Source: an uncultured Actinomycetes bacterium (GTDB taxonomy: Bacteria > Actinomycetota > Acidimicrobiia > Acidimicrobiales > RAAP-2). From it: a DNA stretch of 64,000 nucleotides. The DNA lies in NCBI GenBank assembly GCA_903830655.1, contig CAIKUQ010000017.1, positions 1 to 64,000 on the forward strand, read 5' to 3'. Made by a program: the position numbers and the translations under genes. This document shows positions 37,369-42,963 of this stretch, piece after piece. Numbering within the stretch: the stretch's first letter is position 1; the number at the start of each line of letters is the position of its first letter. The notes beneath the pieces are model-generated. The model ran no database searches. It was not told the origin of the DNA and saw nothing but the letters and a program-made list of their open reading frames with translations.

Positions 37369-37611
37369 TCAAGGCTGGTCGGCGATGCGCTCAATTCGCA
37401 GCGCCTGTCGTGGACAGCCCCGTACGGCGTAGCGAGCCGATTGGAGCGCCTGGACGTTACCGGTGGGGGTGGGCTCTTTTTTGATAATGGGGTAACCCCA
37501 TTCATCAATATCCACCAAATCGGGGGCGAGTTCATGGCAGTGGCCAAAGCCGTCACAAAGGATTGGGTTTACCTTCAAGACAAAGCTGCCGCCGCGTCGT
37601 ATTACTCCCAT
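37369..37611 (-). CDS. Small ferredoxin, probably [3Fe-4S]
   Basis: The 80-residue protein has LCDGFGHCHELAPD and a later RGCPRQAL: Cys-x5-Cys and Cys-Pro, with a His where a 4Fe ferredoxin would have another Cys. This is the pattern of 3Fe-4S ferredoxins that often serve cytochromes P450. It is the last gene of the redox operon and overlaps the NuoF-like gene by ten bases. It is probably the electron carrier paired with the NuoF-like protein. Confidence 0.85.
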   Translation of the reverse strand: MGVIRRGGSFVLKVNPILCDGFGHCHELAPDLVDIDEWGYPIIKKEPTPTGNVQALQSARYAVRGCPRQALRIERIADQP

Positions 37612-38879
37612 ACCAGGTCCTCTTCTCTTTCAAACTTGGGCACGGTGGCGTAGAACTTGGTGCCGCGCGACCCCACGCAAGGTGAGCCATTGATGTGGTT
37701 CTGCAGATCCTTACTGAAGACCTGCAGAGCGGTACGGACCATGCGCACGACGCCGTCGGGGTGCTTGCAGGCCCCGCGACCATCAATCTCGGCGGCCCGT
37801 TGCACCAAGCGGTCGAGTGACTGCTTGCGGTCCTTTCCGCCCTGGACCAGTTGGTGCAGATCGTCGGCGAGTGCGGGAAGTCCAAAGGCGCAGGGACCAC
37901 ATTGGCGAGCCGATTCGTTGGCCATCCATTTTGTGATTCGGTAAGTTTCCATAAGGCCACACGCTTGCTTGGGCAACACCATGATGACTCCGGCGCCGAC
38001 GCTGGCGCCAACCTCGGCGAGAAATTCGGTCGCAAAGGGCAAGCGAATGTTTTCGCCACTAAACCAAGTTCCGCCGTACCCACCGAGCAGAATCGCGAGT
38101 GGGTCGGTGTCGGCCCCGGCAACTTCGAGAATGGCCTTGACCGGCGTTCCTAGGGCAACTTCAATGACGTGAGGACGATCAACGGCGCCGGTGACCGAGA
38201 CCAACGTAGAACCGGGTGAGCTGGCGGTACCGAGTTGGCGATACCACTGGGCCCCGTAGCGACCGATGAGCCCAACGTTCGCACAGGTCTCGGCATTGTC
38301 GACGAGGACGGCGCTGCGGCCAATACGCAAAATTGTGGGGCGATGAGGTCGGTATTGGGGGAGGGACTCATTGTCATCGAGCCAGTGAACGAGAGCCGAT
38401 TCTTCACCCGCCACGTATCGCCAAGGCGGAGTGTGCAACTCAATCTCTGGTCCGCGCAAACTACGACGGGTGCGCTCGTGCAAAGCGCGCTTGACATGAT
38501 TAATAACAATTGGGTTATCTCTCGAGACACATATCGCAATGCGTTTGGCGCCAATCATGTGAGCCAACATTTCCGCGCCATCGATGACGAGGTGGGGATT
38601 GGCGTTGAGCAGGGCTAAATCCTTATGGGAGGAGGGCTCACCCTCCATGGCGTTAACAACAACAAACTTGCCGTGTCCACGCTGTTCACCCAGTAGCTCA
38701 ACCTTCTTAGAGGTAGGGAATCCCGCTCCACCACGACCGGTGAGGCCGGAGTCGCGTAATTCGGTGAGGAGATCTGCTTTGGGGTTGATTGGCCCGAACT
38801 CGTGGTCGTGTTCATCGAGTGAGAGTGGGCGACCCGATGCATGGTGCAAGAGGCGTGGGAGAGCGTTAGCGCTAATCAT
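37602..38879 (-). CDS. NuoF-like NADH-binding flavoprotein (stand-alone)
   Basis: The 425-residue protein has the FMN loop GLTGRGGAGFPTSKK, the NADH site NAMEGEPSSHKDLALL, and the Fe-S region ESARQCGPCAFG followed by GACKHPDG. Compared with complex I NuoF (ESCGxCxPCxxG), the first Cys is Ala, leaving three Cys. No other complex I gene is present. It probably oxidises NADH and passes electrons to the ferredoxin or to the membrane heme protein encoded beside it. It is coupled to its upstream neighbour by ATGA. Confidence 0.85.
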   Translation of the reverse strand: MISANALPRLLHHASGRPLSLDEHDHEFGPINPKADLLTELRDSGLTGRGGAGFPTSKKVELLGEQRGHGKFVVVNAMEGEPSSHKDLALLNANPHLVIDGAEMLAHMIGAKRIAICVSRDNPIVINHVKRALHERTRRSLRGPEIELHTPPWRYVAGEESALVHWLDDNESLPQYRPHRPTILRIGRSAVLVDNAETCANVGLIGRYGAQWYRQLGTASSPGSTLVSVTGAVDRPHVIEVALGTPVKAILEVAGADTDPLAILLGGYGGTWFSGENIRLPFATEFLAEVGASVGAGVIMVLPKQACGLMETYRITKWMANESARQCGPCAFGLPALADDLHQLVQGGKDRKQSLDRLVQRAAEIDGRGACKHPDGVVRMVRTALQVFSKDLQNHINGSPCVGSRGTKFYATVPKFEREEDLVWE

Positions 38880-39532
38880 CGACGAGCCCTACCCTTCGAG
38901 GTCGGGCGCTGGTCACGAGGAAATGGCGCGGTTGCGGACTTGGTCCGAGGCGGCGCTACACGCTCGAGTGGCGAGAGTGCAGTGCGCCCTCCCGCTCGAG
39001 TAGGTCGACCAAAGAAACGCCAGAGTCCCGCAACGACAATCGCTCCTGCGCAAAAAGCCACAAAAATGAGCCCCGAGGCCCCCTTGGTGTCAGTGCCGAT
39101 GAGCGCTGCGTGGACGAGGGCGGTGATGTAGGCAATCCAGGAGAACCAGTGGATGAAGCGCCAGGTGGCGTTTTTGATTCGAACTTTCAGCAAGCTGGAA
39201 ATCCAAACGGCCAAAATTAAGTCGAAGGCGATGGTCCCAATCGCCACTTGGGTGGTCTTATAGGGAGAAACAAAGGGCACCACCGTAGAGAACCAGCCGG
39301 TGGCGACGTAACCGTCGATCACCGTGGTCACAATGTGCAGGGCTAAAAAGATGACCGCCACAATCGATAAGGAGCGGTGAAGTTCGTTAATTTCAAAACG
39401 GCCAACAATGGTGCCGCCAATACGGTTAGCCACAAAGGTCCCGAGAAAAGCCACGAGGGTGAGCAACAGCAGCGCCACAATTCCCGTAGCTCGAGTTGAG
39501 TACCAAAGATACGGGGAGGTTAAGCCAATCAT
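38876..39532 (-). CDS. Ferric reductase-like heme-b membrane protein
   Basis: About 218 residues with roughly six membrane helices. Two pairs of helix histidines (ELHRSLSIVAV with FLALHIVTT; RFIHWFSW with ALVHAALIG) could hold two b hemes, as in ferric reductase or MsrQ-type domains. There is no FAD/NAD domain; a basic, Pro/Arg-rich tail of about 45 residues extends into the cytoplasm. ATG 39532 overlaps the apbE stop as ATGA. It likely carries electrons across the membrane. Confidence 0.82.
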   Translation of the reverse strand: MIGLTSPYLWYSTRATGIVALLLLTLVAFLGTFVANRIGGTIVGRFEINELHRSLSIVAVIFLALHIVTTVIDGYVATGWFSTVVPFVSPYKTTQVAIGTIAFDLILAVWISSLLKVRIKNATWRFIHWFSWIAYITALVHAALIGTDTKGASGLIFVAFCAGAIVVAGLWRFFGRPTRAGGRTALSPLERVAPPRTKSATAPFPRDQRPTSKGRARR

Positions 39533-40437
39533 GCGAGTTCTTCCTCTCTGGGCCAAGCGCCCACTAAATCAATGTCGCCATCAGTGCGCACCAGCCGTGC
39601 GGACAATCCCGCTTGCGCGAGGTAGTACGTGGCCTCTTCACCCCACACTAGGGCGGCGGTGGAGAACGCATTGGCCTCAACACAACTTGCCGCGACCACT
39701 GAAGCAGACCCGTAGAGTCCATCGGCCGAATCGCCAGTAAAGGGATTAATAATGTGATTCAACTGCTGTCCCGCGCCTTGCCAGGTGCGAATCACGCGCG
39801 AGGAAGTTGCGACACCAGAATTGCTGAGCCCGAGGCGTGGATCGTGGTCGGTAGCTTGCAACGTGTCGCTGATCGCGATGGCCCACAGTCCGTCAGGACC
39901 CTCACCGCGCACAGCCACGTCACCACCAATTTCCACCACTACACCGCATGAGTCAGCCACGTCGTTGGCTACGAGATCGCAGGTCAGCGCTTTAGCGGTA
40001 GCCCCGAAATCCAATTGGCAGCCGTTACGTAAGCGCACAGTGCTCGACTGGTGGTCTATTTCTATTGCGTCAAGACCAAGCGAGGGCTCGGTCGCACCAA
40101 CTTCGATTGATTCGTCGTTGGCGATGACCGCATAGTCGCGGTCATAACCAAGCGCAAGTAAAGAGGGAAGGATTGTTGGGGAACAGGCGCCACCGGTTTG
40201 TTCGTAGGCCGATATGGCGGTGTTAAGGCACAGCTCAAATGTCGAAGAATAGGTCATTGCTTCACCCTGACTCTGATTGAGTCTCGTTATTTCAGAGTCA
40301 GCAATGAACCGATTAGCGGCAGAGTCAATTGCCCTGAGCCAGTAGTCGAGCCGTTCAACCCCGATTCCTAAGGCCTCATCCGAGGCGACCGTTAATGAAC
40401 CGCTTACGCCCCACACAGTAAATCGGTGGGTTTTCAC
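39529..40437 (-). CDS. FAD:protein FMN transferase (ApbE family)
   Basis: ApbE enzymes attach FMN covalently to Thr/Ser of extracytosolic redox proteins. In these 302 residues I see CSPTILPSLLALGYD, DFGATAKALTCDLVAND, VEIGGDVAVRG and a C-terminal VEANAFSTAALVWG. The Asp that usually coordinates magnesium in the last motif is Asn; I recall other actinobacterial members with the same change. GTG 40437 overlaps the preceding stop as GTGA. No typical FMN-acceptor protein is encoded in the operon. Confidence 0.88.
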   Translation of the reverse strand: MKTHRFTVWGVSGSLTVASDEALGIGVERLDYWLRAIDSAANRFIADSEITRLNQSQGEAMTYSSTFELCLNTAISAYEQTGGACSPTILPSLLALGYDRDYAVIANDESIEVGATEPSLGLDAIEIDHQSSTVRLRNGCQLDFGATAKALTCDLVANDVADSCGVVVEIGGDVAVRGEGPDGLWAIAISDTLQATDHDPRLGLSNSGVATSSRVIRTWQGAGQQLNHIINPFTGDSADGLYGSASVVAASCVEANAFSTAALVWGEEATYYLAQAGLSARLVRTDGDIDLVGAWPREEELA

Positions 40438-40733
40438 CAACAACCCAGGAAGGTTCCCGAAGCTGAAGTGTGGCAAACCGTAGGGGTGGTCACCGGTACG
40501 GTCCTAACGGTGGTTGGGGTGGAGGGACGAGTAGTGGGGGTTGTACCGCCACCGGTGGTGGTTGTGGTTGTGGGGACGGTGTTGGTCGTGGTTGACGCGG
40601 TCGAGGTACTGGCGAAGTAGGCCACCATGCCCGCGGAAAGTGCGCTCGCTACGAGAAAGATTGAGTTAGACAAGAGGCGAACGCGAGCGAATCGACGGTC
40701 TCTCAGTTGTGGAGTTCTAGGTGTTGGAGTCAT
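40434..40733 (-). CDS. Small single-pass membrane protein with Thr-rich outer tail
   Basis: The 99 residues comprise a basic N-terminus, one membrane helix (about 23-43) and a Thr/Pro-rich linker of about 40 residues, ending VCHTSASGTFLGCW with a Cys pair. In related operons known to me, an FMN-binding-domain protein with a similar N-terminus stands here; that domain is absent. AAGG precedes the ATG and the stop is fused to apbE (GTGA), so it is a genuine operon member. Function unknown. Confidence 0.7.
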   Translation of the reverse strand: MTPTPRTPQLRDRRFARVRLLSNSIFLVASALSAGMVAYFASTSTASTTTNTVPTTTTTTGGGTTPTTRPSTPTTVRTVPVTTPTVCHTSASGTFLGCW

Positions 40734-40823: not shown

Positions 40824-42167
40824 TTATCTTAACTCTGAAGGGGTGGTTGTGGGCAGGGTCAGGACCATGCGAGCACCACCGAGATCTGGGTCAGACTCGA
40901 CTGAAATATGTCCATTGAACTCCTCGACGACCTGCTGGACGATCGAGAGCCCCAATCCCGACCCCGGCAGCGATCTGGCCGACGGGGAGCGCCAAAAGCG
41001 GTCAAAGACAAAGGCCCGATCGGCTTCGGCGATACCCGGCCCAGAATCCGAGACGCTCACCACACCCGCTTTGCTCGCGACCTTGATTCGTCCGTTTTCC
41101 GGGGTGAATTTAATGGCGTTGGTAAGCAAGTTAGAAATTGCCCGCACTAAGCGGTCGTGGCGTCCGTCAACGCTTGACGCAACGACATCAGATTCGATCG
41201 TGATGTTCTTGATCCGGGCGTAGGTGCGGGCAGTATCGAGACATTCATCGATAACTTCGTCGAGCGATATTTTTACAATCGGACCCTCCGAACGATTGCC
41301 GCGAGCAAGTTCAGCGAGGTCACCAACGAGCGCTGTTAATTCATCGACTTGGGTCTCGACGTCGGTGGTCAGCTGTTCGAGGTCGGCGGGGGAGAGATTC
41401 TTGGCTTTGCTCAGAACCTGAGCGTTGGTGCGCAAACTTGTTAGGGGAGTTCGGAGTTCGTGACTCGCGTCGAGTACTAACTGCCGCTGCAACTGTTGGC
41501 TGTTTTCGACATTGCCGAGCAGCAGATTAAAGGTTCGACGCAAACGACCCAGTTCGTCGTTGCCCTCTTCACTGAGGCGTGCGTGCAAATTATGGGAATT
41601 AGCAATTTTTTCGATTTCGTCGGTGACCGCTTCGAGGGGCAGTACTGCCCGGCGTGCTAACCACAGGCCGAACCCGAGGGCAAAGATAAGCCCAGCGAGC
41701 AATATCAGCAAATTAGTTGGAAGAACGTGGTTATTCGTTGCTAATTGGGCATCGATGGGCTCTTGGTACACATTGGCGGTTGCGGTGTCAAACACGCACA
41801 CGTCGTCGGGACAGGACACCTCAGAGTTAGCGGGACGATAGACGATGTACTGGCGGAAGTGCTGCCCGTTGCGAAGGATCGTGCGAAATTGGGTGGGTTC
41901 TTTGCCATTGGCAATCGCGATGAGAAGTTTGTCGGCGGGCAATCTAACTGAGGGTGAAATCGCCCCCGAGGTCGAGACAATTTCGAAGGGTGGGTTCGCC
42001 CGTTGGTCCTCATTGCCAGCAACGCTCGTGGCGCTGCTACGCAAACTCGCGTCCACTGAGGTGAGGGCTGAGTTGTGGGTCGTGTAAAAAGCCGCCACCG
42101 AGGCGAGTACCGCCACCAGCGAGGCGGACAGCACGGCCGCTACAACGACGCGAGTGCGAAACTTCAT
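40824..42167 (-). CDS. Sensor histidine kinase, HAMP-HisKA-HATPase
   Basis: The 447-residue protein has a membrane helix at about 5-27, an outer sensor region with a CX4C pair (VSCPDDVCVF), a second helix at about 150-172 (LLILLAGLIFALGFGLWLA), a HAMP domain, the phospho-acceptor His in DASHELRTPLTSLR, and an ATPase domain with NAIKFTP, DSGPGI and GSGLGLSIV. It phosphorylates the response regulator encoded just upstream (ATGA overlap). The redox operon begins 90 bases downstream on the same strand, which suggests it as a target. Confidence 0.95.
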   Translation of the reverse strand: MKFRTRVVVAAVLSASLVAVLASVAAFYTTHNSALTSVDASLRSSATSVAGNEDQRANPPFEIVSTSGAISPSVRLPADKLLIAIANGKEPTQFRTILRNGQHFRQYIVYRPANSEVSCPDDVCVFDTATANVYQEPIDAQLATNNHVLPTNLLILLAGLIFALGFGLWLARRAVLPLEAVTDEIEKIANSHNLHARLSEEGNDELGRLRRTFNLLLGNVENSQQLQRQLVLDASHELRTPLTSLRTNAQVLSKAKNLSPADLEQLTTDVETQVDELTALVGDLAELARGNRSEGPIVKISLDEVIDECLDTARTYARIKNITIESDVVASSVDGRHDRLVRAISNLLTNAIKFTPENGRIKVASKAGVVSVSDSGPGIAEADRAFVFDRFWRSPSARSLPGSGLGLSIVQQVVEEFNGHISVESDPDLGGARMVLTLPTTTPSELR

Positions 42168-42862
42168 GATGCGCGCAACGAGTACCCAACACCACGAGCG
42201 GTGTGCAGCAAGCGGATCTCACCATCTTCTTCGAGCTTGCGACGGAGATAGCCGATGTAGACCGCCAGTGAGTTTGTCCCCGAATCAAAGTTGTACCCCC
42301 AGACAAGATCCAAAATCTGGTCACGGGTGAGAACTTGGCGGGGGTGTTGCATGAAGAGCTCGAGCAATTCAAACTCAATTTTTGTTAACTCAATCTTGCG
42401 AACTCCGCGGAACACCTCTCGAGTATTGGGGTTCAGGGTTAGGTCTTCAAAGCGCAGATTGGCGGCCTCGCCCCCGTTGGCTTGCCTGCGTCGCAGCAAC
42501 GCTCGAAGGCGCGCGAGCAACTCAGCGAGGTCAAAGGGCTTGACCAGGTAGTCATCGGCTCCGACGTCGAGGCCCTCAACGCGGTCGTTCACCGCGTCTC
42601 GTGCGGTCAGCATCAAGATGGGGGTGGCGTCTCCCGATTGACGAATTCGGCGGCAAATTTCTAGACCGTCAATATCGGGGAGTTGGAGGTCCAAAATAAT
42701 TGCGTCGGGAGCACGGAGTTGGAATGATTTTAAGGCCGAGGCCCCGTCTTCAAAGAGCTCCACCTCGTAATTTTCCATGCGCAGGGCGCGACCCAAGGAG
42801 GTGCGGATGGCGCCATCGTCATCAACGATTGCCACATAGAGGCTGGCGTTTTCAGCGGACAC
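42164..42862 (-). CDS. OmpR-family response regulator
   Basis: About 232 residues: a receiver domain with VDDD, the phospho-Asp in AIILDLQLPDIDG and VKPFDL, then a winged-helix DNA-binding domain (IELTKIEFELLELFMQHP, DQILDLVWGY). It resembles the MprA/TrcR group. The start is GTG 42862, set by AAGGAGA about seven bases upstream. The pair with the kinase gene is first in a possible seven-gene minus-strand transcription unit. Confidence 0.94.
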   Translation of the reverse strand: MSAENASLYVAIVDDDGAIRTSLGRALRMENYEVELFEDGASALKSFQLRAPDAIILDLQLPDIDGLEICRRIRQSGDATPILMLTARDAVNDRVEGLDVGADDYLVKPFDLAELLARLRALLRRRQANGGEAANLRFEDLTLNPNTREVFRGVRKIELTKIEFELLELFMQHPRQVLTRDQILDLVWGYNFDSGTNSLAVYIGYLRRKLEEDGEIRLLHTARGVGYSLRAS

Positions 42863-42963
42863 GACGGTCTCCTTCAGGTTTGTTCTAGGCTCTAGTGTGG
42901 CTAAGTGCCATAAAGGCAAACCACAGTTTTAATAAGAATACGTTCAAAATTGTGGACCACCGG

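Follow-up and report, generated by a model that had tools for sequence, protein, structure and literature searches.

A candidate fold-less, membrane-tethered substrate of ApbE encoded in a redox operon of uncultured Acidimicrobiales

The stretch of DNA analysed here, 64,000 nucleotides of contig CAIKUQ010000017.1 from an uncultured member of the Acidimicrobiales (assembly GCA_903830655.1; hereafter the window), carries at 37369-40733 five minus-strand genes encoding a small Thr-rich protein, an ApbE-family protein, an MsrQ/NOX-like membrane protein, a NuoF-like protein and a three-Cys ferredoxin. We consider it fairly probable that this operon specifies an MsrQ-like electron exporter driven by reduced nicotinamide adenine dinucleotide (NADH), in which the small protein would be a natural tethered flavin carrier. 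We also incline, with some reserve, to the broader view that ApbE has natural fold-less substrates, namely single-helix, low-complexity tethers with a terminal flavin-tag-like peptide, which would be widespread in the window's order, and that the window's genus has turned this tag into a loop bounded by Cys, on which a divergent cytosolic ApbE of the Asn type acts.

Results

The five coupled genes and their four overlaps were found as an earlier note on this DNA had described them (Table 1). The likely start of apbE is the GTG at 40437, giving a GTGA overlap with the small-protein gene, and that of the MsrQ-like gene is the ATG at 39532, giving an ATGA overlap with apbE; the NuoF-like and MsrQ-like genes meet in a further ATGA, and the ferredoxin gene overlaps the NuoF-like gene by 10 bp. 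The random association of neighbours that the same note had considered was not borne out in a neighbourhood survey, which showed synteny in both the genus and the order and an association of the operon genes far above chance. In the genus the order is response regulator, histidine kinase, small protein, ApbE, MsrQ-like protein, NuoF-like protein and ferredoxin, adjoining IspE, KsgA, PASTA, TatD and MetG, and this arrangement is near universal wherever contigs permit the check. Of 347 genomes sampled across the order, 69 have a close NuoF-like homolog; the majority of the loci retrieved from these also contain an ApbE, an MsrQ-like protein and a ferredoxin, so that the core recurs in many families, and a narrow home-made profile found no FMN_bind gene in them. 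Phylum-wide NuoF-like matches, which mostly had no ApbE nearby according to our own profiles and no FMN_bind-like neighbours in a crude motif scan, were left out of the analysis.

Contig 17, which contains the window, belongs to an assembly of 1.40 Mb that is about 95% complete. Its named relatives are metagenome-assembled Acidimicrobiales and Acidimicrobiaceae together with less precisely labelled actinobacteria, and isolate names place several of them in palsa, bog and fen; the two closest are metagenome-assembled genomes labelled 'uncultured actinobacterium', with 87-89% identity in the NuoF-like protein.

The small protein combines a basic N-terminus, one hydrophobic helix, a low-complexity stretch of Ser, Thr, Pro, Gly and Ala, and a conserved C-terminal end, and has neither an FMN_bind domain nor a match to any Pfam family. 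Its gene lies directly 5' of apbE (in one related locus, L123, between the ApbE and MsrQ-like genes), and each of the 46 genus loci that could be checked has an ortholog. Compared with the two nearest relatives, the window's tail shows changes in 8 of its 13 codons, all of them synonymous, which indicates purifying selection on the tail; together with the conservation of both ends of the protein across the genus, this rules out a spurious small open reading frame (ORF). Most related operons likewise encode, beside ApbE, a short protein of low complexity that has one helix and a conserved C-terminus, and in several of these operons (L067, L073, L076, L079, L127, L133 and L139) an [FL]PG[RHK] segment recurs right after the helix.

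The ApbE target motif is D-x-x-[ST]-G-A-[ST], whose seven residues suffice for labelling, best at a terminus; loss of the motif Asp has a minor effect, while a change of Ala to Val cuts labelling to about half (PMC12052999). Three types of small-protein tail were recognised across the genus and other families. The genus tail (type a) reads C-x-[ST]-[TSA]-[PA]-S-G-x(3-4)-C-x at 46 of 46 checkable loci, one with a longer first gap; both Cys, the Ser and the Gly are invariant, and only the Ser-Gly of the ApbE motif is retained. Type b, found in many other families, ends in SGGS, SGGT, TGGS, SGAS or TGAS, and type c, found in genus paralogs and in other families, carries HATTGAS or close variants near the end. 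A terminal [ST]G[AG][ST], in which Gly for Ala at the third position is itself a relaxation of [ST]GA[ST], was present in 22 of the 47 small proteins from other families against 0.17 expected when the sequence following the helix is shuffled; within the last ten residues it was present in 35 of the 47 (1.19 expected). Since the background rate was 19 in 3458 ORFs of the same loci, and 10 in 423 among those rich in Ser, Thr, Pro, Gly and Ala, composition alone was ruled out as the source of the motif. The tail motifs of L123, L149, L156 and L164 were added by eye, beyond the 47.

The type c operon occurs as a second, paralogous operon in some members of the genus (L072, L074, L075, L077, L080, L082 and L086), where histidine kinase and response regulator lie downstream, not upstream.

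The structure model of the operon ApbE (predicted local distance difference test score 95.3) has the full ApbE fold, and in Foldseek searches its closest match was FmnB (1.8e-22), followed by other ApbEs. The His that acts as general base (His257 in Vibrio) is invariant in the genus and in the ApbEs of the SGGS and TTGAS types, and the GGD motif is kept; the canonical Lys-Gly is replaced by Lys-Ala. No signal peptide was found: residues 2-8 already form a strand in the model, and in a set of 46 genus ApbEs no N-terminus is strongly hydrophobic. In an alignment with solved ApbEs, the Mg-binding Asp of their AD..AT motif is matched by Asn in the operon protein, as it is in all 31 SGGS-type ApbEs; the TTGAS-type ApbEs have Glu there, together with a change of Thr to Lys (20/20), and the six readable FMN_bind-linked ApbEs have Asp. 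Hence the ApbE subtype tracks the tail type of the small protein. In a phylogenetic tree the ApbEs of Cys-loop operons formed one clade (100/100) that grouped with SGGS-type ApbEs of the same family, and the TTGAS-type ApbEs were compatible with a single origin.

The remaining proteins could form a path for electrons across the membrane. In these protein families the likely order is NADH, flavin mononucleotide (FMN), iron-sulfur (Fe-S) cluster, ferredoxin, b hemes and the outside. According to Pfam (PF01512 and PF10589) and PDB alignments, the NuoF-like protein has an intact NADH/FMN domain, an SLBB-like segment and a divergent Fe-S domain. The Ala in place of one Fe-S Cys, which the earlier note had reported for this protein, is present but is a trait of the clade, since all 12 aligned relatives show the pattern A/S-x2-C-x2-C...C; the window protein thus lacks the full four-Cys N3 set and retains three, with an extra C-terminal Cys that is likewise invariant in the 12 relatives. 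With TIGR01959 it scored 212.8 bits and did not reach the equivalog cut-off of 558.65, which, with the Cys pattern and the separate operon, agrees with the view that it is no ordinary complex I subunit. The absence of complex I genes holds for the window only, as the genome encodes NuoD (PF00346, E 1.9e-113); a second, weaker NuoF-type match was counted in G000. The reading of the NuoF-like gene as a stray piece of complex I was rejected: the complex I genes lie elsewhere, and both the Cys pattern and the operon are particular to the clade. Two loci (L083 and L084) have a further NuoF-like and ferredoxin pair (35-37% identity) with no ApbE or MsrQ-like matches nearby.

PDB matches relate the three-Cys ferredoxin to partner ferredoxins of P450 enzymes. 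In the MsrQ-like protein four His are invariant among 37 diverse relatives and sit in two helices of the five-helix model, which matched SpNOX and STEAP2 with a Foldseek probability of 1.00 and modest E-values (0.01 and above). These His and the NOX/STEAP-like model lend no support to the idea of a protein without heme and suggest that it is probably a heme carrier. In several other families the MsrQ-like protein continues beyond the helices with about 150-180 additional C-terminal residues that the window's protein does not have; for the L067 protein, Pfam gave no match besides Ferric_reduct.

Upstream of the operon and in the same direction lies a pair of genes for a response regulator and a histidine kinase (40824-42919), outside the segment to which the earlier note referred. 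The pair keeps this upstream position in the genus and adjoins the operon in several families outside it. The presumed sensor region of the kinase contains a Cys pair, CPDDVC, kept in 37 of 45 genus orthologs, which possibly senses redox state. A promoter and terminator scan gave matches at or below chance level, and an inverted-repeat search gave nothing informative.

Table 1. Features of the operon, its upstream neighbours and longer MsrQ-like relatives
Feature	Position	Strand	Evidence
Thr-rich small protein, 99 residues	40434..40733	-	ORF and translation; no credible Pfam family
C-terminal loop CHTSASGTFLGCW of the small protein	40437..40475	-	46/46 genus loci
ApbE-family protein, 302 residues	39529..40437	-	Pfam ApbE 2.7e-41
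MsrQ/NOX-like membrane protein, 218 residues, five predicted helices	38876..39532	-	Pfam Ferric_reduct 1.9e-8
NuoF-like protein, 425 residues	37602..38879	-	Pfam Complex1_51K 3.1e-35, NADH_4Fe-4S 3.4e-15
Three-Cys ferredoxin, 80 residues	37369..37611	-	Pfam Fer4_15 1.9e-6; PDB matches
Histidine kinase, immediately upstream of the operon	40824..42167	-	Pfam HisKA, HATPase_c, HAMP; conserved neighbour
OmpR-type response regulator, paired with the kinase	42164..42919	-	Pfam Response_reg, Trans_reg_C; start unrefined
MsrQ-like proteins with extra C-terminal region	L067:9897-11063, L073:5504-6655, L078:3353-4543, L088		

Discussion

In the mechanism that we propose, cytosolic NADH would reduce the FMN of the NuoF-like protein, and electrons would pass over its Fe-S cluster and the three-Cys ferredoxin to two b hemes of the MsrQ/NOX-like protein. 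From the outer heme they would reach FMN carried on the outward-facing tail of the small Thr-rich protein, and from there an extracytosolic acceptor, for which ferric iron is a guess. The small protein would be the substrate of ApbE, with a C-terminal peptide on a flexible Ser/Thr/Pro/Gly linker taking the place of a folded FMN_bind domain, so that its tail would be a naturally occurring equivalent of the engineered flavin tag. Within the window's genus this tag would have become a Cys-bounded, possibly disulfide-closed loop retaining Ser-Gly, with FMN attached perhaps to the invariant Ser or to another Ser or Thr close by, unless the loop is a disulfide relay. As ApbE has no signal peptide, it would add FMN to the C-terminus of the small protein prior to export. 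The flow from NADH to an outer covalent flavin in the earlier note therefore stands in part: conservation and gene anatomy point to an NADH-fed, probably heme-mediated path tied to ApbE, but the note gave the outer flavin no carrier, and FMN_bind proteins are absent from the genome. The MsrQ-like and NuoF-like proteins were rejected as ApbE targets, as their KGAS and VGAS lack the leading Ser or Thr and the one in the MsrQ-like protein is not conserved.

Several points weigh against this proposal. That the small protein is flavinylated is probable, as we infer from sequence patterns, and the case for a carrier, which these patterns make stronger for tail types b and c, is weaker for the window's own tail because the acceptor position is inconsistently Ser or Thr and no protein of the operon contains [ST]G[AG][ST] or [ST]GA[ST]. 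In the genus tail, Val, Arg, Gln, Leu or Phe often stands two residues after the Gly, so that the canonical FMN-accepting position has been lost. Moreover, Asn replaces the Mg-binding Asp in 51 of 51 genus ApbEs, the window included, with a cytosolic ApbE the tail would have to be exported after its flavinylation, and the covariation between ApbE and tail type partly reflects common descent.

Some of these points would suit an alternative that we regard as unlikely, in which the genus loop is a redox-active disulfide/dithiol that takes electrons directly from heme and has replaced a flavin-bearing SGGS tail, leaving ApbE with another target or as a relic. Both Cys are invariant (46/46) while the canonical acceptor position is not Ser/Thr, the motif is missing from the operon proteins and ApbE lacks the Mg-binding Asp. 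However, every sampled genome of the genus retains ApbE, and the rest of its active-site residues do not vary, which is unlike a relic, the Ser-Gly of the ancestral tail is invariant as well, and the same Asn is found in SGGS-type ApbEs whose tails are near-canonical.

The altered Mg-binding residue would also fit an ApbE that flavinylates nothing and splits flavin adenine dinucleotide (FAD) to provide the NuoF-like protein with FMN, the small protein then serving the membrane subunit as a structural partner or as one that spans the wall. Such an enzyme would resemble Ftp of Treponema pallidum, described in structure titles as a bifunctional FMN transferase/FAD pyrophosphatase, and without a signal peptide it would share a compartment with the NuoF-like protein. 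We give this little credence, as it leaves unexplained both the ApbE-like motifs at the ends of small proteins, far above chance in other families, and the correspondence between ApbE subtype and tail type.

Genome content bears on the remaining alternative, that the target of ApbE is encoded elsewhere, as an FMN_bind protein in the missing 5% of the genome or as a member of an unrecognised family, and that ApbE shares only regulation with the operon. No FMN_bind gene that could encode the carrier was found elsewhere in the window's genome, nor were DUF2271, NqrB/RnfD or DUF3570, and the genome has one ApbE only, which makes this an orphan ApbE in the sense of PMC8238504. Orphan ApbEs are taken there to imply unidentified substrates, the less common ones remaining to be recognised, which together with a genome only about 95% complete favours a target elsewhere. 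On the other hand, FMN_bind is present in 54 of 80 sampled genus genomes, and those that lack it have one ApbE match each, with two exceptions (G048 and G014), so that the ApbE of the operon is retained next to the small protein even where an FMN_bind partner is lacking. Furthermore, several genus FMN_bind genes adjoin an additional ApbE, the readable ones being of the Asp subtype. A target elsewhere thus seems to us scarcely probable.

The genus FMN_bind proteins (L112-L118 and further matches) are themselves single-helix proteins with a Ser/Thr-rich linker, and the Asp-subtype ApbEs that several of them adjoin seemingly also lack a signal peptide.

No description of a fold-less tethered ApbE substrate was found in the open-licence ApbE papers searched, and a Ferrimicrobium electrode paper makes no mention of this operon system. 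If the proposed carrier role is correct, the small proteins are a candidate class of ApbE substrates that escapes domain searches and is widespread within a single bacterial order, and the operon may give poorly known actinobacteria from peat, lakes and acid sites a way of passing electrons outward. The tethers permit a direct test of FMN as an electron carrier on a disordered tether compared to a flavin-binding fold, and natural flavin-tag-like peptides with matching ApbE variants could be useful in protein labelling.

Comparison with known systems

The type of system is already known. As the earlier note had pointed out, related flavinylation-linked gene sets exist, and PMC8238504 lists MsrQ-like systems with a NuoF-like donor in 31 clusters. 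Like these NuoF-variant systems, the window, itself actinobacterial, has a single cluster in which apbE stands with the genes for a PF01794 membrane protein and an NAD-binding NuoF-like protein. Whereas those clusters typically, though not universally, include an FMN_bind gene, the window has none and carries a low-complexity protein beside ApbE; and the genes kept in that survey were required to encode a signal peptide, which the operon ApbE lacks. The operon ApbE shares its fold, the His base and GGD with FmnB of Listeria and the ApbEs of Vibrio, E. coli and Pseudomonas, and differs from them in the Asn for the Mg-binding Asp, in Lys-Ala for Lys-Gly and in having no signal peptide. The NuoF-like protein has the NADH/FMN domain, SLBB-like segment and Fe-S domain of NuoF, the 51-kDa subunit of complex I, but lacks the first of the four cluster Cys, which is replaced by Ala or Ser in all 12 aligned relatives, has an additional C-terminal Cys and is not encoded in a complex I operon. 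With the transmembrane domains of MsrQ, NADPH oxidase and STEAP the MsrQ-like protein shares a helical bundle in which the invariant His form two pairs, located on two helices, although only five helices were modelled and no NAD(P)H domain is fused to it, the NAD(P)H-binding module of the window's system being the separate NuoF-like protein. Finally, as in the engineered flavin tag (PMC12052999), the proposed ApbE target is a short terminal peptide without a folded domain; unlike that tag, the tails described here are natural, membrane-tethered and encoded in a redox operon, and they read SGGS, TGAS or HATTGAS or, in the window's genus, form a Cys-bounded loop.

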